Shown here: positions 7,448 to 25,510 of the stretch, piece by piece
Position numbering within the stretch: the first letter of the stretch is position 1
Layout: every line of letters begins with the position of its first letter
Assembly (NCBI RefSeq): GCF_006861775.1
Contig: NZ_VDGG01000028.1
Location: 1 to 47,712, forward strand
DNA: 47,712 nucleotides
Direction: 5' to 3'
Source: Psychrobacillus soli
GTDB taxonomy: Bacteria > Bacillota > Bacilli > Bacillales_A > Planococcaceae
Program-made: the position numbers and the translations under genes
Notes under the pieces: model-generated
What the model saw: only the letters and a program-made list of their open reading frames with translations
What the model was told of the DNA's origin: nothing
Database searches by the model: none

Positions 7448-7514
7448 CTTTCAAACCCCTTTCATTAATCACCATTAAACAGAAGGAATACGTATGATAA
7501 AGTACTTTTGAAAT

Positions 7515-7544
7515 AATATACGAAACATTTGAATACGCTTACAA
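7515..7544 (-). promoter_or_regulatory. Candidate SigA promoter with overlapping cre-like site for the cupin-TRAP operon
   Basis: On the minus strand, TTGTAA (7539-7544) and TATATT (7515-7520) are 18 bases apart, putting the start about 60 bases before the cupin ATG. TGAATACGCTTACA (7530-7543) matches the CcpA consensus TGWAANCGNTNWCA with one mismatch and covers the -35 side. CcpA repression of the operon would follow. This is pattern matching only. Confidence 0.45.
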
Positions 7545-7788
7545 TTTATTGGAAACAAACATTTGCAAAATATTGAATCACAAAGTACTATTCCACTATT
7601 CGGAATACCATTCCATTCGTTAAGAATAATTTAACACACACTTTTATTTCCTGCAATACATTTTCGTAATTTTCTGAATCGTTATAATAGAATATTATTT
7701 AATTATTAAATTGAATCAATTTCATAATTACCGTTTTTAAAAATGTGTAGAGTAGCCCTTGGATGAATTTTATGTTTTTTTAAAATAG
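7545..7788. other. Gene-free AT-rich stretch upstream of the cupin operon
   Basis: No gene is visible between the cupin promoter and the LysR remnant. The stretch is strongly AT-rich; imperfect TTCCA/TGGAA repeats occur around 7550 and 7590-7620, with no assigned role. Confidence 0.4.
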
Positions 7789-8407
7789 AATTTCCATTTA
7801 TTTAGGATACTTGTAACGATTGTTGCTTCATTGCTAACTTGATTCGGTCCATAGCTAAATTGGAGGCATTGTAAACAAGCGTCACCAAATCGAAGATACA
7901 AGTGTCAATTTACAATCACTGATTGCAAGTGGGCAGTTAGAAGTAGGACTGATGTCGATGCCAATTACAAATATCCGCCTTGAGAAAGAAACGATTTTAG
8001 AAGAGGATATTTTACTCGCTATTCCGACCAATCATTGGTTAGCAAGTTATGAAGAAGTCAATTTAAAGGATTGCAAAGATGAGCCTTTCATATTTATTAA
8101 AGAAGGCAACCATTTTCGAAAAAATACGTATGATTTATGTGTACAATTCGGCTTCGAACCTAAGATTGTTTTTGACAGCATCAATATCAATACTTGCCAA
8201 TCCCTTGTCACCGCTGGAGTAGGAATTTCTTTTGTCCCCAGAATGGTTGTGAACGAATTTACAATATCAGACAAACCTATGTATTTGCCTATCAAAGCAG
8301 AGAATATTAACCCAAAGAGAGAGATCGTGATGGCTTATAAGAATAATCGTTACCTCTCAAAAGCGGCGCGCTCTTTTATTAATACGATGAAAGAATTGTA
8401 TTATTAA
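7789..8407 (+). pseudogene. Broken LysR-family regulator (HTH remnant plus effector domain)
   Basis: 7952-8407 encodes the C-terminal half of a LysR substrate-binding domain, including EEDILLAIPTNHWLA, SLVTAGVGISFVPRMV and NPKREIVMAYKNNRYLS. The same frame runs upstream to a TAA at 7856-7858 with family-like GGIVN...LIASGQLEVGLMSMP. Further upstream, 7789-7839 reads NFHLFRILVTIVASLLT, resembling a LysR N-terminus, but its start position is TAG and it shifts frame; SIAKLEA of the HTH end appears in another frame near 7845. About 60 residues between HTH and effector domain are missing. The HTH part is weaker evidence than the effector part. Confidence 0.7.
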
Positions 8408-8439
8408 GTGCCGACGAGATAAGTACGAGCGAAAGCGAC

Positions 8440-9490: not shown

Positions 9491-10396
9491 TCACTTCACT
9501 GTTACGTTCGGATCTTTAATAAGGCAATCGATATGAACGCCAGCTTCATTTTCACCACCGAACGACTTATTACTTCCAAAAGCAATATGAACTGTACCAA
9601 AAACTTTTTCGTCTTCTAGTATATTTCCTGTAAGACGCGCTTTTTTATTGGTTCCTATACCAAATTCTGCAATAATTCGACCATTACCTTCACCCAAAAT
9701 TTCTAATAATTGTTTTCCTTGGTCACCAGTTGCATGTACTAAACGACCATCAATAATTTCTAAAATAATCGGTTCTTGAACTAAACCAATCCCAGCTATA
9801 GAACCGTCGATTATTACTTTGCCATTTGCCGAGTTCTCAATTGGTGCTATATAGCTCTCACCTGAAGGAATATTGCCGGATTGGCCTTTTTCTTTAAATA
9901 CTCCCGTACTTGCAATACTTTTTCTATTTTCTATGGAGAAGGACAAACTCATTCCTTCTTTTTCAATTGTAACTGTTGAACCTTCATCCAACACTTTGCA
10001 ATACTTTGCCGTCAATTCTTCTATTTCTTCTGCATTTGCAGAAATCGCCCCTTCTTCTAGCATGTCTAAAGTTACTCCAGGCATTGTTGCTACACGTGCA
10101 CCTTTTTTAGAAGCATTTTTTCGTGCCAACGTATGAGTTAGGGAATGCTCAGTTATACAAAGTACTACATCTGCATTTTTCATCGCCTCTGCAACAAGAC
10201 GGGGAGGCTCTTCCCCAGATTTACTTCGAGTAGACATTTGCATGGAAATAGTTTCATTACCTAATTCTCGTCCTGCCTCTACAAAATATTGAGCAATATC
10301 TGATAGTGCAGTATCTGTTAGTACAAGAAGTGTTTCTTCATTTTGAATATGTAGGTTATTAATCAATACATTTTTTGCTTTTTCTATAGTAGACAA
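9491..10396 (-). CDS. M29-like aminopeptidase (leucyl aminopeptidase/NicX-like family)
   Basis: 301 residues, shorter than classical M29 aminopeptidases (about 410). The C-terminal metal region is recognisable: AEFGIGTN, ILEDEKVFGTVHIAFGSN, then GVHIDCLIKDP, giving Glu, Glu, His and a final H-x-D as in AmpS/AmpT-type enzymes. The N-terminal part (LLVLTDTALSDIAQYFVEAG) matches the family's Rossmann-like half. It is the last gene of the minus-strand dpp arm, 25 bases after the IclR gene, and would act in the cytoplasm on the imported compound or on a product of the M20 enzyme. NicX-type dihydroxypyridine dioxygenases share the fold, so a ring-cleaving role cannot be excluded. Confidence 0.7.
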   Translation of the reverse strand: MSTIEKAKNVLINNLHIQNEETLLVLTDTALSDIAQYFVEAGRELGNETISMQMSTRSKSGEEPPRLVAEAMKNADVVLCITEHSLTHTLARKNASKKGARVATMPGVTLDMLEEGAISANAEEIEELTAKYCKVLDEGSTVTIEKEGMSLSFSIENRKSIASTGVFKEKGQSGNIPSGESYIAPIENSANGKVIIDGSIAGIGLVQEPIILEIIDGRLVHATGDQGKQLLEILGEGNGRIIAEFGIGTNKKARLTGNILEDEKVFGTVHIAFGSNKSFGGENEAGVHIDCLIKDPNVTVK

Positions 10397-10421
10397 TACA
10401 TTCCCTCCTCTCTATTAAGCA

Positions 10422-11183
10422 TTAAGATTTAAGCTTTATATTGTACCGCTTAATAATTACTTCTAGCTCATCACGGGCCTTCATTAATAAAGGAATACAT
10501 GCCTTTTTATGCTCCTCTGTCATACGATAAATAGGACCTGAAACAGTTATAGACCCAATAACGCCAAAGTGATCGTTTAATGGAACAGCTACAGCGAGCA
10601 CATCAGGAGTAAATTCTCCCTGACTCTCTCCCCACCCATTTTCCCTTATTAGTGCAAGTTCTTCTTTCAATTTTTCGCCACTATCCAATGTATATTTTGT
10701 ATACTTAGTAAATCCTTTTTTGATAACGTTTTCAATCATTTCTTCTGAAAGAAATGCCAGTATAGATCGGTAGGACGCCCCGACATATAATGGGGCGCGA
10801 CTACCGGCTGAAACGGAAAACTTCACTTTATTTTCAGGTTCTACCGCAGCTAAAGTGACCGCTTCATCTCGGTCAAGAATTGTTAAGAAAACAGATTCTC
10901 CCGTTTCCTCGCACAGCTTATCTAAAGATGGCTTGATAAGGGTATCTACATTTAGAGATTCGTACATAATTCTGCCTAGTTCCCAAGTGGCATAGCCTAG
11001 GGAATACTTTTTGGTAATTGGATCTTTGGTTACAAATCGGTTTTTTTCTAGAGTTTCTAAAATACGATATATATTCGTATGGTTTATATTCATTTCATTG
11101 GCGAGTTCTCTTCCACCCCAAACAGGCGTTTCTCGAGTAAACATCTTTAATACTTTTAAAGATAAATCTAGTGTCTTTAACAA
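10422..11183 (-). CDS. IclR-family regulator of the peptide-import cluster
   Basis: 253 residues. The N-terminal HTH (about 1-65, with GRELANEMNINHTNIYRILE) is followed by an IclR ligand domain with SAGSRAPLYVGASYRSILAF and GVIGSITVSGP. Translation most likely starts at TTG 11181-11183, behind a GGGGG ribosome site; no better ATG exists in frame. It lies in the operon 82 bases after the M20 gene. It is the obvious candidate to bind the TCACAATGTGA palindromes between dppB and the binding-protein gene, but this is an inference. Confidence 0.9.
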   Translation of the reverse strand: MLKTLDLSLKVLKMFTRETPVWGGRELANEMNINHTNIYRILETLEKNRFVTKDPITKKYSLGYATWELGRIMYESLNVDTLIKPSLDKLCEETGESVFLTILDRDEAVTLAAVEPENKVKFSVSAGSRAPLYVGASYRSILAFLSEEMIENVIKKGFTKYTKYTLDSGEKLKEELALIRENGWGESQGEFTPDVLAVAVPLNDHFGVIGSITVSGPIYRMTEEHKKACIPLLMKARDELEVIIKRYNIKLKS

Positions 11184-11265
11184 GTAAAATCCCCCATATC
11201 TTTCCTAATTACCTACTATATTATCTAAATTAGAATAAAACACAAGTAATTTTACACTCAATCTT

Positions 11266-12540
11266 CTAATCATTGGAAGTTTCATATAAAAAATCCACCA
11301 CTGCAGCAACGTATACTTTTGCACATCTTACTATATCTTCTACTAATACTTTCTCGTTATAGCCATGAATGCTAGGTAAATAAGCTGGACCATATTGTAA
11401 CACCGGAATGTGATAATCTCTAAAATGTCTAGCATCGCTACTTGCCCATTGCATTACTCCGTAAGCTTCATCTTTTGTTACAAATTCAATATTTTCTACG
11501 ATCGCTTTACAAACTGGGTCTTGCGCAGATGTATAATTTGCAACACTCTTAAAACCAAATAACCGTATGGAGTAGCGGATACCTAGACTATCTAGCTCTT
11601 TCTTCAAATAATCTGATACTTCTTCATGGGTAATACCAAATGGTAAACGACAATCTACTTGAACTTTACAGCTTTCAGGAATAACATTTGACTTTGTTCC
11701 TCCATTAATCGTTCCAATGTTCACCGTAATTCTTTCTAAAACTGGTTGAAAAATTTCTCTTTCTTCCTCCACCTCACGTAAATAACGTTTAGAAATGTCT
11801 ACCAATTCTCTCACTTCTTCTGGCATGTGAATATCCAAATCCCATAGTGTACGAATCTTTTCAATCGCTGCGATTGCATCTACAATAGCATTGTTGCCTG
11901 CTACTGGTGATAGACTTCCATGACCAGGCTCACCAAATACTTCAAGCTCAAACCAATAGGAACCCTTTTGGCCGATTGTTGGATTTAACGGAGAGGAAGG
12001 TTCTGCTATCAAACATCCATCACCATTAATCAAGTTATTCTCTAGCAACCACGGGACACCGAATTCTCCACCTGTCTCTTCATCTGGAACTATTGCTAAA
12101 GTAAGCTGACCTGGTAATTCGATTCCTAGTCGCTTGAACAAAGTGAATGCAAAAATAATTCCGGCTAGTCCGCCTTTCATATCACTTGCCCCTCGTCCTA
12201 ACATCCAACCATCCACTACTTCTCCTGAAAAAGGATCGAAATCCCATTTGGATAAGTCACCAGCAGGAACCACATCAGTATGACCACAATAAATAAGTTT
12301 TTTTCCTGATTCATCTCCAATAGAACTTACAAGATTATACATTTTTTCGGATGCTTCATGCCAGTCTACTTCTAGCCCAAACTGCTTTAAATAGTCGGAT
12401 ACAAATTCACTCGCTTCTGTTGAGTCACCTGGGGGATTCTCACTAGGAATTCGGATAAGTGAACTACATAATTCGATTAATTCGTCTTTTCTTTTTTCTA
12501 CTTCATCTACTAATTGCTGTTTTAATTGTGTATTATCCAT
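11266..12540 (-). CDS. M20-family metallopeptidase (ArgE/DapE/acetylornithine deacetylase-like)
   Basis: 424 residues with a complete di-zinc M20 active site: IYCGHTDVVPAGD (His and Asp), GRGASDMKGGLAG (bridging Asp), VPDEETGGEFG (catalytic Glu and ligand Glu), and GPAYLPSIHGYNEKV (last His). It hydrolyses an amide bond of an N-acyl amino acid or small peptide in the cytoplasm. Its ATG shares one base with the stop of the upstream DUF1177 gene, so the two are translationally coupled. It is too distant in context from arginine or lysine genes to be a biosynthetic ArgE or DapE. Confidence 0.88.
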   Translation of the reverse strand: MDNTQLKQQLVDEVEKRKDELIELCSSLIRIPSENPPGDSTEASEFVSDYLKQFGLEVDWHEASEKMYNLVSSIGDESGKKLIYCGHTDVVPAGDLSKWDFDPFSGEVVDGWMLGRGASDMKGGLAGIIFAFTLFKRLGIELPGQLTLAIVPDEETGGEFGVPWLLENNLINGDGCLIAEPSSPLNPTIGQKGSYWFELEVFGEPGHGSLSPVAGNNAIVDAIAAIEKIRTLWDLDIHMPEEVRELVDISKRYLREVEEEREIFQPVLERITVNIGTINGGTKSNVIPESCKVQVDCRLPFGITHEEVSDYLKKELDSLGIRYSIRLFGFKSVANYTSAQDPVCKAIVENIEFVTKDEAYGVMQWASSDARHFRDYHIPVLQYGPAYLPSIHGYNEKVLVEDIVRCAKVYVAAVVDFLYETSND

Positions 12541-13490
12541 TAGTTAGTTACCTCTTGTTTTCCAAAAGTTTGTAAATGTTCCATCTTGCCATATAGCTTT
12601 TCTAATAATACAAACTCTTCCTCATTAAAGAATGAACATTTACCTTCTCCATAAACTTTAGCAACTTCAAGCGCAAATCGTACAACTTGTTCAATGTCCA
12701 CTAAGTGACTTGCTCCTGTACCGCAACCAGCTACAGCTGTTTCTGTTGTAATTGCAACGCCAACTACAGGGCTTGTTGTTGCTACTGCCGGTTGTAAAAT
12801 ACTATTTACATGATATACTCCGTTCCCATAAGGAGTAATATCCTGAGTTGTAATAGGTAAAGTTACTGGTAATATGCCAGCAGATTGTGTATAAATATGA
12901 AGCAAATCATCACTTATTTTTAGAATATAGCCTTGTTTTACCGTTGGAGTAATTGCAAAACCTTTGTGATTTGTAATCATATTTCCTTTCGTTGTATCTA
13001 TAGAAAGAATTGCATCCATTTCTTCGGTTACTTCGTATTGATTCATTGTTAAAATATCAACTGGAGAGTCCATAAACGGTACTGGATCATGAGGTAACGT
13101 TGGGGCAGTTGGACAAATATGTGTTGTTAAAATTACGTCTCCTACTAGTTGATCTCCTTTTCCTTGCATATCTAATAACTTAGCAGCTGTTGCCATAGCA
13201 GATAATGCACCATCTCCATCAGATACAAAGCCTTTTACTTCAGGACGGGCACCAATACCACCAAGTCTTCCAACTATTCCTAGTGTTGGAGCAGTACCTC
13301 CCATTCGTTTTCCATTTGTGCCTGGGATGAAAACTTTCACAAAATCAGTAGATCCAGCTTTTCCTTCCACTGTTTGAACACTAATCTCACCTTTATCTGA
13401 GATTTTCTCTAAATAAGACTTAATTACTTCTCCAGTTACATGAATACTATCCATTTCTTCAAATAATTCCATTACGTGTTTTAATGACAT
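12540..13490 (-). CDS. DUF1177-family protein
   Basis: 316 residues of unknown function, recognised as DUF1177 from SLKHVMELFEEMDSIHVTGE, the GGIGARPEVKGFVSDGDGAL block, ILTTHICPTAPTLPHDPVPF and CGTGASHLVDIEQVVRFALE. The His/Asp-rich blocks and the conserved Cys suggest an enzyme rather than a structural protein, but no catalytic role is established that I know of. It has no signal peptide or membrane segment. It is co-translated with the M20 peptidase and lies 19 bases after dppF. It probably processes the imported substrate. Confidence 0.82.
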   Translation of the reverse strand: MSLKHVMELFEEMDSIHVTGEVIKSYLEKISDKGEISVQTVEGKAGSTDFVKVFIPGTNGKRMGGTAPTLGIVGRLGGIGARPEVKGFVSDGDGALSAMATAAKLLDMQGKGDQLVGDVILTTHICPTAPTLPHDPVPFMDSPVDILTMNQYEVTEEMDAILSIDTTKGNMITNHKGFAITPTVKQGYILKISDDLLHIYTQSAGILPVTLPITTQDITPYGNGVYHVNSILQPAVATTSPVVGVAITTETAVAGCGTGASHLVDIEQVVRFALEVAKVYGEGKCSFFNEEEFVLLEKLYGKMEHLQTFGKQEVTN

Positions 13491-13509
13491 GATTTGTTCC
13501 TCCTAGTTT

Positions 13510-14481
13510 TTATGAATATAAGTGACAAGCTACTTTTTGGGTCTCACCCAAATCTACAAATGCTGGTACGTCCTTTTTGCAATGTTCCATTGCATGAGGG
13601 CATCTTTTGTGAAAACTACAACCAGGTGGTGGATTCACAGGACTTGGTACATCCCCCTCCAAAAGAATTCTCTCTTTTTTATCAAAAGGATTTTCTTTTG
13701 GAATTGCAGATAATAATGCTTTGGTATAAGGATGTTTTGGATTTTCATATAACTCCTCGTATGTACCGATCTCCACAATTTTTCCTAAATACATGACCGC
13801 AATTCGATCGCATATATAGCGAACAACATTTAAATCATGGGAAATGAAAATATAAGTTAGATCAAATTTACGCTGTAAATCTTTTAATAAATTTATAACT
13901 TGTGCTTGAACAGATACATCCAAAGCGGAGACTGGTTCATCGCAAATAATAATATCTGGGTTTAACGCAAGTGCACGAGCAATATTTATACGCTGTCTTT
14001 GACCACCAGAAAATTCATGGACATATCTTTCTGCATGATAACCGCTTAAACCAACAACTTCTAATAACTCTATTACTCTCTTTTTTCTAGATTTAGCGTC
14101 ACCAATATGATGAATAGCTAGAGGTTCTGCAATTAAATACTCAATCGTTTTACGAGGATCCAAAGAAGCATATGGATTTTGAAAAACCATTTGGATAGAT
14201 TTTCGAATGGAACGTATCTCTTTTGATCCTAGTGTTGCTAAATTCTTTCCCTTAAACTCAACAACACCTTCTGTCGGTCGGATGAGTTGATTAATAAGCC
14301 TTGCCATTGTGGATTTTCCACAACCAGATTCTCCAACAATCCCTAGCGTTTCACCTTTATATACTTCAAAACTAACTCCATCCACTGCTTTTACACTTTG
14401 TGTAGATTTTTTAAAAGGTACTGCTTCATTTATTGGAAAATGTTTTTTTAAATTTTCTACTTTAATAACAACTTCACTCAA
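13510..14481 (-). CDS. dppF: Dipeptide/oligopeptide ABC transporter ATP-binding protein (DppF/OppF type)
   Basis: 323 residues. Walker A GESGCGKST, signature FSGGQRQRINIARAL, Walker B IIICDEPVSALD and switch His in FISHDLNVV are all intact. The C-terminal oligopeptide-type domain has the Cys-containing CSFHKRCPHAMEHCKK segment. Its start overlaps the dppD stop by 8 bases. With DppD it forms the heterodimeric ATPase driving the DppBC channel. Dipeptide versus other amide substrates (for example opines or nickel chelates) cannot be told from the ATPase. Confidence 0.92.
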   Translation of the reverse strand: MSEVVIKVENLKKHFPINEAVPFKKSTQSVKAVDGVSFEVYKGETLGIVGESGCGKSTMARLINQLIRPTEGVVEFKGKNLATLGSKEIRSIRKSIQMVFQNPYASLDPRKTIEYLIAEPLAIHHIGDAKSRKKRVIELLEVVGLSGYHAERYVHEFSGGQRQRINIARALALNPDIIICDEPVSALDVSVQAQVINLLKDLQRKFDLTYIFISHDLNVVRYICDRIAVMYLGKIVEIGTYEELYENPKHPYTKALLSAIPKENPFDKKERILLEGDVPSPVNPPPGCSFHKRCPHAMEHCKKDVPAFVDLGETQKVACHLYS

Positions 14482-15487
14482 TGTAAACGCGCTCCTTTCT
14501 TTCTAGACGGTTGGAATTTGTTTGGAAATGGCAAGACACTATATGACCTAGTTCCACCTCGATTGGTTGTGGTTTTGTTGTGCTACAAATTTCTTTTGCA
14601 TATGGACAACGATCAGCGAAATTACATCCTGGGATTGGGTTGCGCAAATCCGGAGGACTCCCAGGAATTGCAGGCAATTTATCACCATTCAATGTATTTT
14701 TCGTGATTTGTGACTCTAATAACCCCCAAGTATATGGATGTAGAGGGTTTTCATAAATAGTTTCCACTGTACCAGATTCCACCGTGTTTCCTGCATACAT
14801 CACAATTACTTTATCGCACATCTCCCATACAACACCTAAATCATGCGTAATCATGATAATCGACGTATCATTCTTTTCCTGCAATGATTTCATAAGTTCC
14901 AAAATTTGTGCCTGTACTGTAACGTCTAAAGCAGTAGTGGGTTCATCTGCAATTAGTAACTTTGGATTACACGATAATGCTATAGCGATCATTACTCGTT
15001 GTCTCATACCACCTGAAAATTCATGAGGGTACATTTTCACCCTTTTTTCCGGCTCTGGAATTCCAACAACTTTCAGCATTTCAATTGCTTTTTTCTTTGC
15101 CTCTTTTTTAGACATCTGTTGATGAGTACGTACTGCTTCTTCGATTTGATCTCCCACAGTAAACACTGGATTTAAACTAGTCATCGGATCTTGAAATATC
15201 ATCGCAATTTCATTACCACGAACGTCTCTCATTTCTTTATCAGAAAGGGATAATATATCCTTTCCATTAAAGGTAATTTTCCCATTTGGGATACTACCAA
15301 TTCCTTTTGGCAGTAATCTCATAAGAGCTGTTGCAGTAACACTTTTACCCGATCCGGACTCTCCAACAATCCCCAGAGTTTCTTTCTTCTTCAATGTTAT
15401 GTTTACTCCATTAACTGCTTTTACAATCGATGCTGAAGAACGAAAGTGGACATCTAAATTTTCGACTTTTAGTATTACATCTGACAT
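14474..15487 (-). CDS. dppD: Dipeptide/oligopeptide ABC transporter ATP-binding protein (DppD/OppD type)
   Basis: About 337 residues. Walker A GESGSGKSV, signature FSGGMRQRVMIAIAL, Walker B LLIADEPTTALD and MITHDLGVV are present, with a C-terminal Cys motif CNFADRCPYAKEIC. The ATG at 15485-15487, preceded by GGAGGTGG, is preferred over an in-frame GTG three codons upstream that overlaps that ribosome site. It partners DppF, whose start it overlaps. Confidence 0.92.
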   Translation of the reverse strand: MSDVILKVENLDVHFRSSASIVKAVNGVNITLKKKETLGIVGESGSGKSVTATALMRLLPKGIGSIPNGKITFNGKDILSLSDKEMRDVRGNEIAMIFQDPMTSLNPVFTVGDQIEEAVRTHQQMSKKEAKKKAIEMLKVVGIPEPEKRVKMYPHEFSGGMRQRVMIAIALSCNPKLLIADEPTTALDVTVQAQILELMKSLQEKNDTSIIMITHDLGVVWEMCDKVIVMYAGNTVESGTVETIYENPLHPYTWGLLESQITKNTLNGDKLPAIPGSPPDLRNPIPGCNFADRCPYAKEICSTTKPQPIEVELGHIVSCHFQTNSNRLERKERVYIE

Positions 15488-15514
15488 CTTTTCCACCTCC
15501 AGTAAAAATATTTA

Positions 15515-16408
15515 TTAGACTTTCATTTTAGGATCTAATGCATCCCTTAACCCGTCACCGAACAAATTTATCCCTAAAACGGTAATAAGGATAGCAAGTC
15601 CAGAAAAAGTGGCCATTTGTGGATTAAGTACTAAGAAGTCTTTCCCATCTTTTAAAATACTCCCCCATGAAGCGGTTGGTGGTTGAACCCCTAAACCTAA
15701 GAAACTTAATGCAGCTTCAGAAATAATAGCTCCGGCAATACTCATTGTTCCATATACAATTAATGGAGCTAAACAGTTAGGAAGCACATGTTGAAATAGT
15801 ATCCTTCCGTGAGTTGCACCTAAAGAACGTGTCACTTCTATAAATTCTTCCTCTTTTACACTTAATACTTGTCCTCGTACTATTCGTGCAAACCCTGGTA
15901 TATTAGCTACGCCGATCGCAATAATTACATTCACTAACCCTTGTCCCAAAACCGTCATTAACGTTATCGCTAGTAGGATGAAAGGAAAGGCAAATAATCC
16001 ATCCATTGTACGCATAATAAGAGAATCTAATTTCCCGCCAAAGTAACCAGCTATTAAACCTAAAAACGTACCAAATACAGCCCCAAACAAAACGGCAGAT
16101 ACTCCTACAATCAATGAAATTCTAGCTCCATACACAATTCGGCTAAATAAATCACGTCCATAATTATCTGTACCAAGGAAATGTCCATCCACTCCAGCTC
16201 CTAAAAGACTATGCGTAATATCCATCTCATTCGGTGCATGTGTAGCAATTAGAGGAGCGAAAATTGCGATAATTGTCATGAAAATAGTGACAAACAAACC
16301 AAAAGCAGCTATGCGATTTTTCAATAATTTCCGTATAAAACTTCGCTCATTTATTTCCTTTTTCTTCACTTCTCTTGTTTCCATAGATGAAGGTTGAGTA
16401 GAAGTCAT
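15515..16408 (-). CDS. dppC: Peptide-type ABC transporter permease (DppC/OppC family)
   Basis: 297 residues: an N-terminal cytosolic stretch, one helix, then a five-helix BPD_transp_1 core. Recognisable are GTDNYGRDLFSRIVYGARIS, the EAA-type loop RSLGATHGRILFQHVLPN, and the ending FGDGLRDALDPKMKV. The start overlaps the dppB stop by 4 bases. It forms half of the transmembrane pathway. Confidence 0.94.
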   Translation of the reverse strand: MTSTQPSSMETREVKKKEINERSFIRKLLKNRIAAFGLFVTIFMTIIAIFAPLIATHAPNEMDITHSLLGAGVDGHFLGTDNYGRDLFSRIVYGARISLIVGVSAVLFGAVFGTFLGLIAGYFGGKLDSLIMRTMDGLFAFPFILLAITLMTVLGQGLVNVIIAIGVANIPGFARIVRGQVLSVKEEEFIEVTRSLGATHGRILFQHVLPNCLAPLIVYGTMSIAGAIISEAALSFLGLGVQPPTASWGSILKDGKDFLVLNPQMATFSGLAILITVLGINLFGDGLRDALDPKMKV

Positions 16409-17373
16409 TTTCCTTCTCCTCCTTTTCCAGAAGAATAATTGACACGTGGATTCACAATTTTATATAAAACATCAATTAATAGATTGACTAATACAAAAAT
16501 TATAGCGATAAATAGTACGGTTCCTTGCACTACTACAAAATCCCGTTTATCTATTGCATCTACTATTAATCGCCCCATCCCTGGCCAACTAAAAATTGTT
16601 TCTGTTAAAACTGCTCCTCCTAATAGGGCGGACACTTGCATACCAAGTACAGTTAAAATAGGCGTTAATGCATTTTTAAACGCATGTTTACCTATAACGA
16701 AAAACTCTTTTAACCCTTTTGCCCTGGCTGTTTTTATATAGTCTTGAGAAATAACTTCCAACATACTAGAGCGTGTAATTCTTGCAAAAGTAGCCATGGG
16801 AATAGTTGCAAGAGTAATACTCGGTAACACTAAATGCTTAATGTATGTGATAAATCCTTCATCCATCGTTCCCATTCCGGTAGCTGGAAACCAACCTAAA
16901 TTTACACTAAAATACAATACAAGCATGACTCCTAACCAAAAGATAGGAATAGAGACTCCTATTAACGAAATAACCATAACCGTATAGTCCATTACCGAGT
17001 TTTGCTTTGATGCGGAAATGATACCTGCTGGAATTCCTATTAATAGAGCTATTACTAATGCTGAAAAGGCAAGTACAAGTGTATTAGGAAATCTATCCAT
17101 AATTAGTGAAATCACTGGTTGATTATAAGTTAATGAAACTCCGAAATCTCCTTGAACTAAGTCTCCAATATACTGAAGAAATTGCGTATGCAATGGTTCA
17201 TTTAATCCTAAATCATCTCTTAACTCTTGTATGTCTTCTACACTTGCTTGTGGTCCTAACATTACTGCAGCCGGATCACCAGGTATTAAACGTGTGATGA
17301 CAAAAACAATAATAGCTACGACAAAAATAGTTGGAAGCAAATCTACTAAACGTTTAAGTATGTATTTACCCAT
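16405..17373 (-). CDS. dppB: Peptide-type ABC transporter permease (DppB/OppB family)
   Basis: 322 residues with six membrane helices. It opens with the DppB signature KYILKRLVDLLPTIFVV and contains FVITRLIPGDPAAVMLG, the EAA-type loop ARAKGLKEFFVIGKHAFKNA and the ending ETIFSWPGMGRLIVDA. First gene of the minus-strand arm; its start faces the binding-protein gene across a 220-base regulatory gap. Confidence 0.94.
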   Translation of the reverse strand: MGKYILKRLVDLLPTIFVVAIIVFVITRLIPGDPAAVMLGPQASVEDIQELRDDLGLNEPLHTQFLQYIGDLVQGDFGVSLTYNQPVISLIMDRFPNTLVLAFSALVIALLIGIPAGIISASKQNSVMDYTVMVISLIGVSIPIFWLGVMLVLYFSVNLGWFPATGMGTMDEGFITYIKHLVLPSITLATIPMATFARITRSSMLEVISQDYIKTARAKGLKEFFVIGKHAFKNALTPILTVLGMQVSALLGGAVLTETIFSWPGMGRLIVDAIDKRDFVVVQGTVLFIAIIFVLVNLLIDVLYKIVNPRVNYSSGKGGEGK

Positions 17374-17404
17374 AAAACCCCTCCTTTTTTCACTATATGA
17401 ATCA

Positions 17405-17570
17405 CTGGTTCACAATGTGAATTAAAAAAAGTTTATCATCTGACTAATTATTTGTAAATATAAAATTAACAATTATCTAAACATTTTAAAAAAATCATTT
17501 ACACATCTTTTCTCATGTGATAAATTAGTTAACAATTCATCATGTGATACAGCGTTTCACAATGTGAATC
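17405..17570. promoter_or_regulatory. Operator cluster in the dppB/binding-protein divergent gap
   Basis: TTCACAATGTGAAT occurs twice (17409-17422 and 17556-17569), each close to one divergent start. The related sites TCATCATGTGA (17537-17547) and TTCTCATGTGA (17510-17520) lie between. The first two are near-perfect palindromes around TCACAATGTGA. They probably bind one dimeric regulator, most simply the IclR protein of the cluster. The right-hand copy lies in the leader of the binding-protein gene. Confidence 0.6.
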
Positions 17571-17593
17571 AACTAAAAGGAGTGATTATAAAT

Positions 17594-19204
17594 ATGGAAA
17601 AGAAGAAATATTTATCACTACTAATACTTGTTTTATGTATGGTATTAGTACTTGCAGCCTGTTCTGGGAAAAAATCTTCTAATGAAGAAGTTTCTTCTAA
17701 TGGAAACGAAAATGCAACTGGAGAACCTCAAGATGGGGGCACCCTTCGTCTAGGGTTATCAGCAAACCCTAAAACGCTTGACCCTATTAAATATACTGGA
17801 GTTTATGAATCTCAAATAATGAGAATGGTTTCAGATACTTTAGTTGTTTACAGTAAAGATTTAAGTGAAATTCAACCATCTCTAGCAACAAGCTGGGAAG
17901 TATCAGAAGATATGAAAGAATATACTTTCCAATTAAGAGAAGATGTATTTTTTCAACCTGGTGAATATCAGGATGGACGTCAAATGACAGCGGAAGACGT
18001 AAAGTATAGCTTAGAACGTTCTGCTACAGAATCTGCGATGAATCGCCTAAGAGGGGTAGCAAGCGTTGAGGTAACAGGAGAATTCGAAGTAAAACTCCAC
18101 ACAGAAGCACCAAATGCCGCACTGCTAGCAATGCTTACAGACTCTGGAAATATGATTGTGGCTAAAGAAGAAGTAGAAGGCTGGGGAGACAACTTCGGTA
18201 CAAATGTTGTAGGAACAGGACCTTTTATGATTAAAAATTGGCAACAAGATCAACAAGTTGAGCTTGTACGTCATGATAAATATTGGGGAGAAAAACCTCA
18301 CTTAGATGGAGTAACAGTTAAAATCATTTCAGATCCTAATATGATGACAAACGCACTTCGCTCTGGTGATATTGACATTGCTTCTGATGTTAAAGGACAA
18401 AACCGAGAATTAATTAAGCAAGATACTAATTTAGAGTTAATTTCTAAATCAGCACTAGCAACAGTTTATCTAGACTTAAATAACAAAAAAGGTCCTACTG
18501 CTGATGCTAAAGTCCGCGAAGCAATTTATAAAGCTACAAATGTAGAAGAAATTGTCCAAGGTGTAAACCAATGGGGTGGAGCAGTTCCTTCCCTTTTACC
18601 AATCCCTAAAGATTCATGGGGATATGACGAAAGTTTAGAAGCTCTTGTCCCAACATATGACCCGGACGCTGCAAAAGCCTTACTTTCGGAAGCAGGTTTT
18701 CCAGATGGTTTCAAAACGGAAATTTATGTATCGGAAGCTCGAGTACCATATGCGACAATCTTCCAAAATCAAATGAAGAAAAACCTTAATATTGATGTAG
18801 AGATTAAAACCGTGGAATGGGGAACGTATAGCGATACTGTCTCTAAAGGAAATGCACCGATGTCCATTGGTGGATGGACATGGTATCCAGACCCTTACTT
18901 TTACTTATACCAACTATTCCACACGGATCAGCTTGGAGCACTAGGTAATGGGAAAGGATATGAAAATGCAGAAGTTGATGCATTATTAAATCGTGCAGTA
19001 TCTGAAACAGTTGACCAAGCGGAACGTGCAACACTTTATCAAGAAGCGCTTAAACTAATCTTGAAAGATGTGCCACGAATTGAGTTAGAAAATACAGAAG
19101 CAGCAGCAGGAATTACGAAAAAAGTTAAAGGCTTTGATGTTTCTCCAGACTTCTCTATCTCTATCGTTAACCCTAATGGTACAAACGTATGGTTGGAGAA
19201 ATAA
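17594..19204 (+). CDS. Peptide-type ABC transporter substrate-binding lipoprotein (SBP family 5, DppA/OppA-like)
   Basis: 536 residues. MEKKKYLSLLILVLCMVLVL leads into the lipobox LAAC, so the mature protein is a surface lipoprotein. Family 5 features include DGGTLRLGLSANPKTLDP, YTFQLREDVFFQPGEY and VVGTGPFMIKNWQQDQ. The start at ATG 17594 is chosen because the signal peptide begins there; AAGGAG at 17577-17582 is 12 bases upstream, a slightly long spacing. It supplies the DppBCDF permease across the gap and is the first gene of the plus-strand arm. A hairpin at 19231-19266 may reduce expression of the genes after it. Confidence 0.92.
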   Translation: MEKKKYLSLLILVLCMVLVLAACSGKKSSNEEVSSNGNENATGEPQDGGTLRLGLSANPKTLDPIKYTGVYESQIMRMVSDTLVVYSKDLSEIQPSLATSWEVSEDMKEYTFQLREDVFFQPGEYQDGRQMTAEDVKYSLERSATESAMNRLRGVASVEVTGEFEVKLHTEAPNAALLAMLTDSGNMIVAKEEVEGWGDNFGTNVVGTGPFMIKNWQQDQQVELVRHDKYWGEKPHLDGVTVKIISDPNMMTNALRSGDIDIASDVKGQNRELIKQDTNLELISKSALATVYLDLNNKKGPTADAKVREAIYKATNVEEIVQGVNQWGGAVPSLLPIPKDSWGYDESLEALVPTYDPDAAKALLSEAGFPDGFKTEIYVSEARVPYATIFQNQMKKNLNIDVEIKTVEWGTYSDTVSKGNAPMSIGGWTWYPDPYFYLYQLFHTDQLGALGNGKGYENAEVDALLNRAVSETVDQAERATLYQEALKLILKDVPRIELENTEAAAGITKKVKGFDVSPDFSISIVNPNGTNVWLEK

Positions 19205-19230
19205 TAAATAATTTCATCTAAATTTATACA

Positions 19231-19266
19231 AGAAAAGTAGAGAGTATATATTCTCTACTTTTCTTT
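19231..19266 (+). terminator. Terminator or attenuator between the binding protein and the amidohydrolases
   Basis: 13-bp stem AGAAAAGTAGAGA / TCTCTACTTTTCT followed by TTTTAAA. It sits in the 83-base gap. Incomplete termination would give high binding protein and less enzyme, a common arrangement. Confidence 0.7.
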
Positions 19267-19287
19267 TAAATGAAAGGAAGAGCCTAA

Positions 19288-20388
19288 ATGATCATATTTA
19301 ACCATGCATACGTCCTAAATCCAATTTCTAATGAATTCAAGAAGAAGAAATTAGTGATTAAAGATCAATATATACATGCCATTTTAGACTGCGATACTAC
19401 CATCGAACAAGAAGACCTTTATCAAAACATAGATGCATCCACTTTATATATTACACCTGGTTTAATAGATGCTTGTTCTCAAATTGGTTTGAAAGAAACC
19501 GGTATCCGTTGGGAAGGAAATGATTCATATGAACCTACCCAAGAAACTAGTAATATTTTATCTGTTGTAGACGGAATTTATCCATTTGATCCTTCCTTTA
19601 AGCTAGCCATTTCTTCTGGAGTTACTAGCGCACATGTTATGTCCACTGCTGAAAATGTTATTGGTGCATACTCTGCGATTATCCATATGGACGGCACAAC
19701 GGTAGATGAAATGCTTATAACAAATAATGTAGGACTTTCTTTTTCTATGGGTGATGTTCCTAAAAAAGCATTCTTTGACTTTACTAAAAAGCCATTAACA
19801 CGCATGGGTATTGCTAATATTATTAGGCAAACGATTCAAAAACTAAGAGCAGATGGATTACCTCTTGATTTTCCTTTTTTTATACGTTGTCACCGTGCCG
19901 ATGATATTGAAACAGCACTCCGAATTCAAAGTGAACTTCAAGCTAATTTCACCCTTGTACATGCAACAGAGTTTGCACTTATAGACAAGGATGCTCAAAA
20001 AGAAATTAGCCAGATAATTGCCGGTCCAGTTTTTCAAGCAATCGAAAGATTTGAACTAAAAAATTTACATCCTTCCCTTTTTAAACAATTACAAACGTTG
20101 GAGATTTTATCATGTAACGCAACAGATCACCCTATTAGCTCAGTATCTCATTTAAAACTAGAGAGTTCGTTAGCAATTCGGGAAGGTGTTTCAAGAAATA
20201 ATGCCATACGTTCTTTAACAACAGATGCTGCAAAAATTCTTCAAATAGATCATTTAACTGGTTCTTTAGCGGCTGGTCTATATGCAGATGTTGTCGTGTG
20301 GGACCAACACCCTCTAAATCTATCAGCTAAAGTATTGAGTACGCTTATTAAAGGAAAAGAAGTTTATAAAGGAAGTGATTGGAAATGA
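19288..20388 (+). CDS. Amidohydrolase-superfamily protein with a degenerate metal site
   Basis: 366 residues, a composite beta-sandwich/TIM-barrel amidohydrolase (imidazolonepropionase/adenine-deaminase-like). The usual D-x-H-x-H after strand 1 reads DACSQ (residues 61-65), so both metal-binding histidines are missing. Later positions are kept: FIRCHRADD, LVHATE and NATDHP. It is paralogous to the next gene over the whole length. It may be a pseudoenzyme partner, or may bind one metal through the remaining His/Asp residues. Its stop overlaps the next start by 4 bases. GAAAGGAAGAG precedes the ATG. Confidence 0.8.
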   Translation: MIIFNHAYVLNPISNEFKKKKLVIKDQYIHAILDCDTTIEQEDLYQNIDASTLYITPGLIDACSQIGLKETGIRWEGNDSYEPTQETSNILSVVDGIYPFDPSFKLAISSGVTSAHVMSTAENVIGAYSAIIHMDGTTVDEMLITNNVGLSFSMGDVPKKAFFDFTKKPLTRMGIANIIRQTIQKLRADGLPLDFPFFIRCHRADDIETALRIQSELQANFTLVHATEFALIDKDAQKEISQIIAGPVFQAIERFELKNLHPSLFKQLQTLEILSCNATDHPISSVSHLKLESSLAIREGVSRNNAIRSLTTDAAKILQIDHLTGSLAAGLYADVVVWDQHPLNLSAKVLSTLIKGKEVYKGSDWK

Positions 20389-21536
20389 CGGTTATTTATA
20401 AAAACTGTATGATTTTCACAATGGATGAACAAAATTCATACTATGAAAATGCAGAAATCTGGGTGGAAAATGGAAAGATTTTATATGTCGGAAATGCTAA
20501 ATCTCCACCTAATAATGCAAAAGTTATAGATAAAAGTGGCTGTATCCTCACCCCCGGTTTGATAGATATACATACGCATGTTGGTATATGGAGTGAAATC
20601 AATGAACAGATTAACGATGCAAATGAATACTCTTCCCCTTACACACCACTAATGAATGCAATAGATGGAATAGATATACGACACTTTTCTTTTGACTTAG
20701 CTATTCAAGGCGGGGTAACTACCATACAAACAGGAGCAGGCAGCGCCAATCCCATTGGTGGTGTTTGGATGATATTAAAAACAAGTGGACGGTCTTTAAA
20801 AGAAAGGATAATTATGGAACGAAGCGGGCTAAAAGGAGCATTAGGAGAAAACCCCAAAAATGTATTTGGTAATAGTAAGCAAAAACCAATGACACGTATG
20901 GCAGTTGCAGAAATTATTCGAAAAGGTTTTCGAGAAGCACTCGCACTATCAGAAACAGAAAAAGAAAACGTTCTAAAAAATAGATCACATCTCTATCCAT
21001 TCATAGAAGTATTGGAACATAAGATGCCGCTACACCTTCACTGTCACCGTGCAGATGATATTGCAACTGCTATTCGCATTGCGAAAGAGTTCGATGTAGA
21101 GCTTTCTATAGAGCACTGTACAGAAGGACATTTAATGCTAGATGCTATTAAAGATAGTAAAGCACACGTAACACTAGGACCATTTATGCTTCCTCCTAGT
21201 AAGTACGAAACTAGAAATTCAACTCCTGCAGGCCCTATGCATTTTGAACAAGCAGGTATTCCATTCGCAATTATGACAGATCATCCTTTTATTCCTATTC
21301 AATATTTATATTATTGTGCTGCTGAAGCAGTCAAATATGGTTTAAGTAAAACAACTGCATTGCGAAGCATAACGATAGAAGCCGCAAAATTAACGAAGAT
21401 CGATAACAGAGTAGGTTCACTTGAAATTGGAAAAGACGCGGATTTTGTTATTTGGTCCCATCCACCTTTTAAAACAGAAGCAAATATAGTAGAAACTTAT
21501 ATCAATGGAGAACAAGTATACAAAAGAGAGGAATGA
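20385..21536 (+). CDS. Amidohydrolase-superfamily enzyme with intact metal site
   Basis: 383 residues. All metal-site elements of the superfamily are visible: GLIDIHTHVG (residues 59-67), LHLHCHRADD, LSIEHCTEGH and IMTDHPFIP. ATG 20385 overlaps the previous stop as ATGA; the TTG two codons upstream is less likely. It probably hydrolyses a cyclic or linear amide (or deaminates) in the cytoplasm. Because the transporter is of peptide type and M20 and M29-like peptidases are encoded in the other arm, a peptide-derived or cyclic amide is the best guess. Substrate unknown. Confidence 0.87.
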   Translation: MTVIYKNCMIFTMDEQNSYYENAEIWVENGKILYVGNAKSPPNNAKVIDKSGCILTPGLIDIHTHVGIWSEINEQINDANEYSSPYTPLMNAIDGIDIRHFSFDLAIQGGVTTIQTGAGSANPIGGVWMILKTSGRSLKERIIMERSGLKGALGENPKNVFGNSKQKPMTRMAVAEIIRKGFREALALSETEKENVLKNRSHLYPFIEVLEHKMPLHLHCHRADDIATAIRIAKEFDVELSIEHCTEGHLMLDAIKDSKAHVTLGPFMLPPSKYETRNSTPAGPMHFEQAGIPFAIMTDHPFIPIQYLYYCAAEAVKYGLSKTTALRSITIEAAKLTKIDNRVGSLEIGKDADFVIWSHPPFKTEANIVETYINGEQVYKREE

Positions 21537-21537
21537 A

Positions 21538-22212
21538 ATGCATCTGAAAACAATATGTGTAATCACAATTGGTCAAACTCCTCGCACAGATATGATTCCT
21601 CCACTTCGATCCTATTTACCAAATGACACTCGAATTATCGAAAAAGGAGTTTTAGATTCGTTAGTAATAGAGGAAATTCAACATCTATTTGTGGAAGAAG
21701 GTCAAACAACATTAGTCTCACGATTAACGAATGGAAACAGTGTAGTAGTAAGCAAAGAAAAAATAATTCCAATCATTCAACAGCTTATAGACGAATGTCA
21801 AAAATCTGAAATAGATTTAATATTACTTGCTTGTACAGGGAAATTCCCTTTATTCTCATCTGAAATTCCTGTAATCTATCCCGATTTTTTACTAAATTAC
21901 GCTGTAAAAGGATTGCTTAGAGAGGGTGAATTAGGGGTGATTGTCCCTTTAATCGAACAATCAGAAATGATTCAAGATAAGTGGAAAGAAGTGAATTTCA
22001 AAACGTGTATTACTTCCACTTCACCATATAATGGGACACATGAAGAATTGGTTCAAGCAACAAAACGATTAAATGAGTCACAAGTTCAAGCAATACTCTT
22101 AGATTGCATGGGATATTCCAATGAGATGAAAAATATTATTCGGGAACACACAACGAAACCAATAATTGTGGCGCGTAATATTATTTATGCAAATCTAGCA
22201 GAATTGCTGTAG
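21538..22212 (+). CDS. AroM-family protein
   Basis: 224 residues. ICVITIGQTPRTDMIPPL at the N-terminus is the AroM signature. LLACTGKFP and LLDCMGYS supply two cysteines placed as in the Asp/Glu racemase-like fold, so an isomerase or racemase activity is possible. The start at 21538 is chosen because AGAGAGGAA lies just before it; an upstream in-frame ATG would overlap the amidohydrolase by 32 bases. AroM was named for co-regulation with aroL in E. coli and its function is still unclear. Here it is co-transcribed with the amidohydrolases. Confidence 0.85.
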   Translation: MHLKTICVITIGQTPRTDMIPPLRSYLPNDTRIIEKGVLDSLVIEEIQHLFVEEGQTTLVSRLTNGNSVVVSKEKIIPIIQQLIDECQKSEIDLILLACTGKFPLFSSEIPVIYPDFLLNYAVKGLLREGELGVIVPLIEQSEMIQDKWKEVNFKTCITSTSPYNGTHEELVQATKRLNESQVQAILLDCMGYSNEMKNIIREHTTKPIIVARNIIYANLAELL

Positions 22213-22249
22213 AAAATTAGTATTTATAAGAGTTAGGAGAAAGACATCC

Positions 22250-22528
22250 ATGCATGGTCTACTTAGAAAAAGATATATTCAAACATCCTGTGAGCAAAAA
22301 CTTTATGCAGTCCAGGAAGTTTTATTAAAAAAACGTCCACGAAAAGAAATTGCCACAGAATTGAATGTGAGCGTCAATTCCGTTACCACATGGATAAAAA
22401 AATATAAAGAATACGGAGAGAATAGCTTCATCTCCTCCGCACAATACGAAATAAAGCGATTAAAAGAAATTGAAAAGCATTATTACGAGCTTATAAACAT
22501 CGATAAAAAACAAAGTTACGTAAAATGA
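22250..22528 (+). CDS. Small helix-turn-helix protein (transposase-OrfA-like HTH)
   Basis: 92 residues. RPRKEIATELNVSVNSVTTW is a clear helix-turn-helix of the kind found at the N-terminus of IS3/IS630-type transposases (family terminal helix WIKKYKEYG follows). The rest is a charged helical tail rich in Lys and Glu, with no catalytic domain and no terminal repeats around it. GGAGAAAGA precedes ATG 22250. Since it lies 37 bases after aroM on the same strand it may be a domesticated regulator of the cluster; it could also be an orphan transposase fragment. Confidence 0.65.
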   Translation: MHGLLRKRYIQTSCEQKLYAVQEVLLKKRPRKEIATELNVSVNSVTTWIKKYKEYGENSFISSAQYEIKRLKEIEKHYYELINIDKKQSYVK

Positions 22529-22697: not shown

Positions 22698-22742
22698 ACA
22701 TCCAGGTTGGAAACAATGTTTCATCGCTTCCAACTTGGATGT
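22698..22742. terminator. Bidirectional terminator between converging transcripts
   Basis: 15-base arms ACATCCAGGTTGGAA / TTCCAACTTGGATGT with one internal mismatch and a 15-base loop. It separates the plus-strand AroM arm from the minus-strand ABC transporter that ends at 22773. Confidence 0.65.
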
Positions 22743-22772: not shown

Positions 22773-23804
22773 TTATTTCGGCAACACTACCACCCGATCT
22801 CCCACTTGAAAACTCGCATGAATACTTTCAATTACATCAATGGTGTTTGTACCCGTATCTACGGTGAAATGTATTTCCCTACCTTGGAATAATACATTTC
22901 GAACCCCCCCCGGAATCCCATTTCCTTTTTTACTTAAGGTTAATTGTTCTGGTCTAATTGGACATTTCGATTGCCTTTTCATATCTTCTGTTATATCTGG
23001 AATTTGCCACTTCACTGTTTCATCTTTTAATGGGAAAAAATAGTTCTCTCTCCACTTGCCATTTAACACATTTGCTTTCCCTATAAATTTCGCTACAAAT
23101 TCAGTTTTAGGCGTAAAATAAATTTCCTTTGGAGTTCCTATTTGTTCGATCTTCCCATTGTTCATCACAACAATTTTATCCGCCATTGCTAATGCTTCAC
23201 TTTGATCATGTGTGACATAAACAATCGAAGTATTCGTTTTTCGATGAATGGTTTGGATTTCATTTCGCAGTTCTATTCTCAATTTCGCGTCCAAACTACT
23301 TAAAGGCTCATCCATCAACAACAGTGCTGGGCTTGGAGCTAATGCTCGAGCAATTGCTACACGTTGCTTTTGTCCACCAGAAAGATCCCCTGGCATTCTT
23401 TCCGCAAAATCTTGAAGTCCTACGAGTGAAAGCATCTCTTCTACTCTTTTTGTTTTATTTTTATGTAAACTAGATGTAACAAAACGATGATATTTTAATG
23501 GAAATGCTACTTGCTCCTTTACTTTCATATGTGGCCAAAGTGCAAATGCTTGAAAAACCATTCCGAGATTTCTTTTTTCAGGAGGCATGCTATTGTTCGC
23601 ATTAGCTACTAATTCATCATTCATGTAAATGGAGCCTTCTGTTGGTGTTTCAAAACCTGCGATTAGGCGTAATAGCGTAGTTTTGCCGCAGCCAGATGGA
23701 CCGACGATTGCCACAAACTCCCCATCTTCTATGGTCAAATCTATTCCCTTTAATGCTTGAAAGCCATCAAATGTTTTTTTTACATGTTGTAATCTTGTAC
23801 TCAC
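22773..23804 (-). CDS. ABC transporter ATP-binding protein (FbpC/PotA/PhnT-like)
   Basis: 343 residues. Walker A GPSGCGKTT, signature [15 protein letters not shown], Walker B LLLMDEPLSSLD and VTHDQSEAL are present, followed by a C-terminal TOBE-type domain (about 240-343). It matches importers for Fe3+, 2-aminoethylphosphonate, thiamine or spermidine. The start overlaps the permease stop by 4 bases. It is the last gene of a three-gene operon. The substrate cannot be fixed from the ATPase. Confidence 0.9.
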   Translation of the reverse strand: MSTRLQHVKKTFDGFQALKGIDLTIEDGEFVAIVGPSGCGKTTLLRLIAGFETPTEGSIYMNDELVANANNSMPPEKRNLGMVFQAFALWPHMKVKEQVAFPLKYHRFVTSSLHKNKTKRVEEMLSLVGLQDFAERMPGDLSGGQKQRVAIARALAPSPALLLMDEPLSSLDAKLRIELRNEIQTIHRKTNTSIVYVTHDQSEALAMADKIVVMNNGKIEQIGTPKEIYFTPKTEFVAKFIGKANVLNGKWRENYFFPLKDETVKWQIPDITEDMKRQSKCPIRPEQLTLSKKGNGIPGGVRNVLFQGREIHFTVDTGTNTIDVIESIHASFQVGDRVVVLPK

Positions 23805-25489: not shown

Positions 25490-25510
25490 GCTATGAACCT
25501 ACCTTTTTGA

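Follow-up and report, generated by a model that had tools for sequence, protein, structure and literature searches.

What would a bacterium import and dismantle with DUF1177 and AroM, two protein families without assigned function, when both are encoded beside a peptide-type importer and a suite of putative amide hydrolases? The question is raised by a contig of Psychrobacillus soli (NZ_VDGG01000028.1 of assembly GCF_006861775.1), of which a stretch of 47,712 nucleotides was analysed (hereafter, the window). Thirteen open reading frames (ORFs) lie within positions 9491-22528; twelve of them (9491-22212) constitute a single divergent cluster, very likely for uptake and breakdown of a small peptide-like amide, confirming what a preliminary description had noticed in the sequence, whereas the last, a small helix-turn-helix (HTH) gene, lies outside it. 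The two families thereby become testable as partners in one pathway, encoded by a compact and, by its looks, complete and separately regulated operon.

The divergent cluster and its intergenic sites

The minus-strand arm runs outward from position 17373 and encodes, in this order, OppB/DppB-type (16405..17373) and OppC/DppC-type (15515..16408) permeases, OppD/DppD-type (14474..15496) and OppF/DppF-type (13510..14481) ATPases, DUF1177 (12540..13490), an M20 deacylase of the ArgE/DapE type (11266..12540), an IclR-type regulator (10422..11183) and a short, 301-amino-acid (aa) form of an M29-like metallo-enzyme (9491..10396). The plus-strand arm, starting at 17564, encodes a substrate-binding protein (SBP) of the SBP_bac_5 family (17564..19204), two amidohydrolase-fold proteins, AH1 (19288..20388) and AH2 (20379..21536), and AroM, with an Asp/Glu-racemase fold (21505..22212). 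All these genes have Pfam matches above the cut-off (M29, IclR, M20, DUF1177, OppF/D with oligo_HPY, OppC/B, SBP_bac_5, two amidohydrolases and AroM), with 447.6 bits for DUF1177 and 224.7 bits for AroM. The assignments additionally draw on NCBIfam for IclR and M20, on residue alignments for M20, AH1 and AH2, on a ligand alignment for the M29-like protein, on structure models for DUF1177 and AroM and, for the SBP, on a lipoprotein-like N-terminus read from the sequence. The peptide-type ABC importer is complete, as had been proposed, all five subunits carrying diagnostic Pfam domains, and the proposed IclR regulator is present as well. Every gene of the anticipated hydrolase/isomerase set was also recovered, but AH1 lacks the HxH motif and the M29-like protein is the short form. 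The AH1/AH2 and AH2/AroM reading frames overlap as called, suggesting translational coupling. In the SBP-AH1 gap, an abutting, loop-free 21-nt inverted repeat with 90% complementarity (19227-19268) may form a hairpin and so dampen expression downstream of the SBP gene. No Rfam match at the gathering score was found in the window. The 4,226,526-base draft genome contains one DUF1177 match and one AroM match, both inside the cluster, and both families are absent from 16 other genomes of the genus, indicating that the cluster is sporadic within it.

The 190-bp gap between the two arms carries two 33-bp sites, one beside each gene start, each consisting of two 13-bp palindromes with centres 20 bp apart (TTCAnATnnTGAA-N7-TTCAnATnnTGAA). 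Site 1 (17389..17421, minus strand; TTCACATTGTGAA-N7-TTCATATAGTGAA) lies beside the importer arm and site 2 (17536..17568, minus strand; TTCACATTGTGAA-N7-ATCACATGATGAA) beside the SBP arm. With up to two mismatches, these are the sole matches in the whole draft genome, where a reversed control yielded none; with up to three, the window holds three matches, one of them being the other strand of site 1, versus 0.13 expected from shuffles. A variant of the pattern with a 9-base spacer, instead of the actual 7, had no matches. The idea of two arms arranged around shared operators is thus borne out by a site pair, one per arm start, that is unmatched elsewhere in the genome, and the cluster IclR is presumed to bind both sites. 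Because the listed GTG start of the SBP gene (17564) overlaps site 2, the gene probably begins with the ATG at 17594.

The sites recur in relatives (loci are denoted by L numbers and genomes by G numbers). Across 28 divergent SBP/OppB gaps, namely, that of the window and those of 27 relatives, 24 have a best site of 17/20 or higher; the gaps below this value are L033, L034 and L035 (16) and L052 (15). Per-region shuffles, which preserve base content only, have a mean of about 12 and maxima of 14 to 17, so that the best sites of these four gaps, taken alone, are not above chance. A second site scoring at least 15 is present in 23 of the 28 gaps, many of these scores (15-16) lying within the shuffle range; it is missing from L052 and from L023, L033, L039 and L101, where the gaps (125-215 bases) were probably cut short by the assigned gene starts. 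Given that the 20-position pattern was derived from the same sequences that were later scored, the shuffle contrast is post hoc, whereas the uniqueness of the sites in the genome is independent of the shuffles.

Association of DUF1177 with AroM and two types of locus

The preliminary description had suggested that DUF1177 and AroM are coupled, a claim that would have fallen had the genes not co-occurred elsewhere. They do co-occur. Among 151 genomes of the family (Planococcaceae), 20 encode DUF1177, 23 AroM and 20 both; among 299 genomes of the class, the corresponding numbers are 31, 30 and 28 (Fisher values of 4e-22 and 1e-33, respectively, with relatedness ignored). The family count excludes G065, in which the DUF1177 match is under the cut-off, and fragmentary DUF1177 matches were found in G093 (family, 43 positions) and G413 (class, 42 positions). 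In 26 of the 28 class genomes with both families, the two genes lie within 10 kb of each other on one contig, the exceptions, judged by eye, being G339 and G421; the near AroM copy of G410 is broken. Both families are also found in Haloferax volcanii, one of 14 control genomes.

A second survey covered the 80 DUF1177 loci most similar to that of the window, the best 80 of at least 588 confirmed and hence not a random sample. Most are from Bacillota, but Synergistota, Actinomycetota, Pseudomonadota and one archaeal metagenome-assembled genome are also represented. Counts were made at the ORF level with a threshold of 50 bits, and the simplified gene caller missed AroM in L059, L082 and L089. 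AroM is encoded in 61 of the 80 loci, adjoining DUF1177 and co-directional with it in 30. Of the 19 loci without a nearby AroM, 12 belong to genomes that have an AroM match, including a 36-position fragment in L047 and a copy with nine stops in L070. The latter is located directly after DUF1177, at about 10954-11595, judging by coordinates, with contig identity inferred. Overall, the strong association between the two families holds up.

Two types of locus were recognized. The importer type, with OppB, OppF, DUF1177, M20 and IclR in one locus, accounts for 39 of the 80 loci, 27 of which also encode AroM, 32 an M29-like protein, 18 AH2 and one (L042) DUF917. Loci of the second type are characterized by an OPT transporter (23/80), DUF917, named 'S-Me-THD-like' in Pfam (24/80), and an Asp/Glu-hydantoin racemase (25/80), and often encode a PucR-type regulator (22/80, simplified gene caller), followed by DUF1177, AroM and an M29-like protein. 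In none of the 80 loci does AH2 occur together with DUF917, OPT or the racemase; for AH2 and DUF917 (20 and 23 loci), the chance value of this exclusion is 3e-4, relatedness being ignored. As AH2 is never found with DUF917, one seems to replace the other, and the arrangement reads as a shared core with an exchangeable ring opener, either DUF917 or the amidohydrolases. L042 combines an importer-type cluster with an adjacent OPT-type one and has two paralogues of DUF1177, which makes it a natural test for a common substrate of both types.

Predicted folds, active sites and flanking genes

The structure model of DUF1177 (mean pLDDT 88.9, pTM 0.91) retrieved with Foldseek, as its best match in the PDB, the M28 aminopeptidase 1qq9 (E 2.3e-8, probability 1.00, TM-scores 0.49/0.55), followed by M17, DapE/M20 and glutaminyl cyclases (best 50 of 117 matches, E ≤0.001). 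Sequence comparison with solved chains yielded no match at E ≤1 with phmmer and, with the family profile, five matches of E 0.065 to 1.1, which are chance-like. From the model, DUF1177 is predicted to have the fold of zinc peptidases (M28/M17/M20, MH-type) with a non-canonical active site. What we take to be the canonical metal set of MH-type zinc peptidases (His, Asp, Glu-Glu, Asp, His) is incomplete in DUF1177, residue equivalence with M28 being read from strand order rather than from a residue-level structural alignment. By this reading, Asp91 (55/55 sequences) is at the place of the bridging Asp; after the next strand, His124 (54/55) and Cys126 (55/55) are found instead of Glu-Glu, and the invariant Asp165 and His227 (both 55/55) are candidates for the two remaining ligands. 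A single-metal site, such as that of glutaminyl cyclase, is possible.

For AroM, the best match of the model (pLDDT 95.3) is a malonate decarboxylase with the racemase fold (E 8.1e-7, TM-score about 0.6), followed by Asp, hydantoin and Glu racemases; the fold is common to (aryl)malonate decarboxylase and to hydantoin, aspartate and glutamate racemases. The sequence profile matched 2eq5, a hydantoin racemase, weakly (E 0.009) and no other chain; in Pfam, PF07302 alone was matched and PF01177 was not. Cys110 and Cys201, present in 41 of 41 sequences, presumably correspond to the catalytic pair of Asp/Glu racemases. The racemase-like fold suggested earlier for AroM is thus supported both by structural matches and by two invariant cysteines, and a stereochemical role would fit the predicted fold.

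The pair of amidohydrolases proposed at the outset stands in so far as both proteins are family members by sequence, but the two are not equal catalysts. In the window and in 18 other loci, AH2 invariably retains the HxH motif (His-Thr-His in the window), His223, His246 and Asp301 (19/19). By contrast, AH1 has lost HxH in all 19 sequences, with Cys (18) or Phe (1) and Gln (17) or Ser (2) instead, and Arg replaces His221 throughout, whereas His223 is kept in 18 of 19 and His246 and Asp301 in all. Nine pairs, two of which have saturated dS values near or above 2, gave dN/dS of 0.06-0.13 for AH1 versus 0.03-0.08 for AH2, indicating that AH1 evolves faster than AH2 yet is conserved by purifying selection and is not decaying. 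AH1 occurs only with AH2 (18 of 18 loci), whereas AH2-like genes stand without it in L062 and L088. In the tree, AH1 and AH2 form one clade each (support 100/100) with similar inner branching, the deep order being unsure where long branches meet (program warning). Judging from the sequences, AH1 and AH2 are probably an enzyme and its non-catalytic partner, which would make the pair a clear-cut example of an amidohydrolase that is inactive yet retained for its partner.

The wider AH2 family is represented in 65 of the 299 class genomes at E ≤1e-30. Twenty stretches around such homologues contained no DUF1177 or AroM match; H[TS]H is present in 17 of 19 sequence slices, the other two not spanning that part. 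The best NCBIfam relative of AH2 is imidazolonepropionase, under its cut-off, and the best solved relative of both AH2 and AH1 is 3ooq (8.4e-76 and 2.6e-45, respectively), which we take to be TM0814 of Thermotoga maritima. A literature search, largely without subscription journals, found no paper on TM0814/3OOQ, no functional study of DUF1177, the one paper containing that term being titled on fungal DUF1996 proteins, and, among the papers listed, none titled on the role of AroM. A separate AH2-like pair lies beside DUF1177, SBP and AroM in L062 (4660-6986), the second copy having Asp301 and His246 replaced; this one locus hints that active/inactive pairing arose twice.

The Pfam match of the M29-like protein spans profile positions 185-385 of 406; with 301 aa, the protein falls short of the full-length two-domain form of about 410 aa. 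By profile, its closest solved family is NicX (7cn3, a 363-aa chain, E 4.9e-14), followed by PepS and AmpS. The set E180/E244/H270/H288/D290, presumably metal ligands as in the M29 family, stands in 33 of 36 sequences, the exceptions being L073, L074 and L076 (24-25% identity) with Gln180, His244 and Glu270; on account of this peptidase-type set, a NicX-type dioxygenase was rejected. The M20 protein scores 274.3 bits against TIGR01910 (ArgE/DapE), versus a cut-off of 217.6, and six residues that we take to be metal-binding or catalytic are found in 21 of 21 sequences; no single-function (equivalog) model was above its cut-off among the best 25 of 52 matches.

Several genes surround the cluster. 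The HTH gene (22250-22528, plus strand), which had been counted as a cluster member, encodes a 92-aa protein resembling, by Pfam/NCBIfam, the N-terminus of IS3-type transposases. It is present in a single copy in its own genome and has no match in the 80 DUF1177 loci of relatives; its IS3-like character and its absence from those loci exclude it from the cluster, and it is probably a mobile-element remnant. Where the cluster and the next operon converge, a 21-nt inverted repeat (22698-22742; 86%, arms 3 nt apart) is possibly a terminator common to both. That operon encodes a separate ABC importer (22773-26584, minus strand), with an ATPase carrying TOBE_2, a double permease and an SBP_bac_8/6-type binding protein; an iron type would be our guess. 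On the other side, a LysR substrate-binding domain stands alone (7952-8407, plus strand, 151 aa), and the three forward frames of 7471-8410 contain no open HTH part upstream of it; this is probably a broken LysR regulator. Nearby are genes for a TRAP-type binding protein (6011-7042) and a cupin (7100-7447).

Candidate substrate and comparison with known systems

The main pointer to a ring-type substrate, by association, comes from cyclodipeptide oxidases (CDOs). A 2024 study describes AroM, DUF917, hydantoin racemase, OPT/ABC transporters and peptidases as enriched around CDOs that lack a synthase, identifies PF19585 as CDO subunit B (CDO-B) and notes that neither AroM nor DUF917 has been characterized experimentally (PMC11055893). 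The pathway regarded as undescribed in the preliminary description is therefore partly on record, but the term DUF1177 is absent from the main text of that paper. Within the class, CDO-B was found in 4 of 299 genomes, all four among the 28 with DUF1177 and AroM (chance value 6e-5, relatedness ignored). The distance of the CDO-B gene to AroM is about 40 bp in G410 and, for one AroM copy, 1.6 kb in G371; in G162 it lies 3.2 kb from DUF1177, and in G421 on a different contig. Of the 80 loci, 47 had their genomes scanned, and CDO-B was found in one, that of L087 (Planomicrobium), where a nitroreductase-CDO-B pair is directly upstream of PucR, racemase, OPT, DUF917, DUF1177, AroM, EamA and M29-like genes. 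By association, the presence of DUF917, the hydantoin-type racemase, OPT and an occasional CDO beside the core favours a cyclic amide as the substrate.

In our tentative reading, which may well be correct, the twelve genes form a self-contained catabolic system, controlled by IclR, for importing and dismantling a peptide-like amide. The SBP and OppBCDF would take up this small molecule, which most likely has a ring (diketopiperazine-, hydantoin- or imidazolone-like); AH2 would open the ring within a hetero-oligomer held by AH1, which no longer binds metal; AroM would invert a stereocentre by a two-cysteine mechanism; and DUF1177, the M29-like protein and the M20 deacylase would cleave the remaining amide bonds, releasing amino acids. 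With the inducer present, the hold of IclR on the two sites would change and both arms would switch together. Such a pathway is a reasonable idea, and cyclic dipeptide degradation was considered little known in a 2013 paper (PMC3852281). A bolder proposal, possible if rather doubtful, is that DUF1177 and AroM form the core of an unrecognized, cross-phylum pathway for cyclic amides (diketopiperazines or hydantoins), with DUF1177 being a new zinc-peptidase branch with a rewired, perhaps single-metal, site, and the exchangeable ring opener being DUF917 in the OPT type and an amidohydrolase/pseudo-amidohydrolase hetero-oligomer in Psychrobacillus soli.

Several observations weigh against this interpretation. 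Gene neighbourhood is association, not function. The genome of the window has no PF19585 match, and a CDO pair is found in one of the 80 loci. The link between DUF1177 and AroM is not absolute, given that AroM occurs without DUF1177 in G073, G116 and G133 (family), in G276 and G288 (class) and, among the controls, in E. coli, and DUF1177 without AroM in G331, G342, G413 and the control Sulfolobus acidocaldarius. The proposed coupling of both families to amide hydrolases holds in the window, but the amidohydrolases are outside the core, AH2 being present in 20 of the 80 DUF1177 loci, and the loss of the metal motif from AH1 means that they are not two equal catalysts; importer-type loci with neither DUF917 nor amidohydrolases exist as well. 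Finally, the TM-scores of the DUF1177 and AroM models are moderate (about 0.5 and about 0.6), Arg75 of DUF1177 (55/55) occupies the inferred place of the first metal His, and a profile comparison between DUF1177 and M20 was not significant (probability 0.4%).

Some of the evidence would equally suit an ordinary operon for scavenging dipeptides or oligopeptides, in which a Dpp-type importer feeds peptidases including DUF1177; D-residues or side reactions would then be the reason for recruiting AroM and the amidohydrolases. The SBP resembles dipeptide (DppA), glutathione (GsiB) and heme-binding-protein-A types of binding proteins, the DUF1177 model has a peptidase fold, and the M29-like and M20 proteins retain peptidase-type ligands. 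Furthermore, AroM is missing nearby from 12, and AH2 from 21, of the 39 importer-type loci, implying that ring opening and racemization are not obligatory there. However, plain peptide use has no obvious need for a two-cysteine isomerase, the M20 protein is of the ArgE/DapE type, and DUF917, the hydantoin-type racemase and, rarely, CDO accompany the DUF1177-AroM core. We consider scavenging unlikely.

An N-acylated or conjugated amino acid (an N-acyl amino acid, an opine, a gamma-glutamyl compound or an advanced-glycation adduct) appears quite improbable as the substrate. In that scheme, M20 would deacylate the substrate, AH2 would open an imidazolone-like ring and AroM would correct the stereocentre, consistent with the ArgE/DapE score of M20, with the imidazolonepropionase relationship of AH2, albeit under the cut-off, and with the presence of agrocinopine, metallophore and glutathione binding proteins among the relatives of the SBP. 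However, Pfam recognized no opine or conjugate enzyme in the cluster, all SBP equivalogs among the matches listed are under their cut-offs, and M20 is encoded in just 45 of the 80 DUF1177 loci. That the cluster serves to quench or detoxify a cyclic dipeptide acting as a signal or antibiotic, as opposed to feeding, is very improbable: the CDO pair adjoining the L087 core and CDO-B within 4 kb of AroM in three genomes would suit it, but a dedicated importer with several hydrolases and no exporter recognized in the window version fit feeding better, and an EamA-type gene was called in 6 of the 80 loci (simplified gene caller).

Several known systems come close to the cluster. Like Dpp/Opp ABC importers, it has all five subunits with their diagnostic domains (SBP_bac_5, two BPD permeases and two ATPases with oligo_HPY), whereas its SBP is under every curated equivalog cut-off among the matches listed. 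DUF1177 shares the overall fold of its model with M28/M17/M20 zinc peptidases and glutaminyl cyclase but differs from the zinc peptidases in having neither a significant sequence relation to them nor the first His at the inferred place. The M29-like protein has NicX (2,5-dihydroxypyridine 5,6-dioxygenase, 7cn3) as its best profile match, yet the NicX-like His at position 244 is confined to three paralogues and the peptidase residues E180, E244 and H270 are found in 33 of 36 sequences. The closest solved relative of AH1 and AH2, 3ooq, was deposited as 'amidohydrolase' only. A precedent for the pair is provided by the aspartate transcarbamoylase (ATCase) of P. aeruginosa, described as carrying an inactive dihydroorotase-like chain that is required for activity (PMC7053772). 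In both cases, an amidohydrolase-fold chain has lost catalysis and been retained as a partner, but in P. aeruginosa the partner is ATCase rather than an active amidohydrolase paralogue, and the AH1-AH2 complex is one that we infer. With the CDO-linked AroM/DUF917 clusters (PMC11055893), the window's cluster shares the combination of AroM, a peptide-type importer and peptidase genes, and L087 adds a CDO pair upstream of an OPT-type DUF1177-AroM locus; unlike those clusters, that of the window is devoid of DUF917, OPT, a PF01177-type racemase and CDO subunits, and AH1/AH2, M20 and IclR are its own features.

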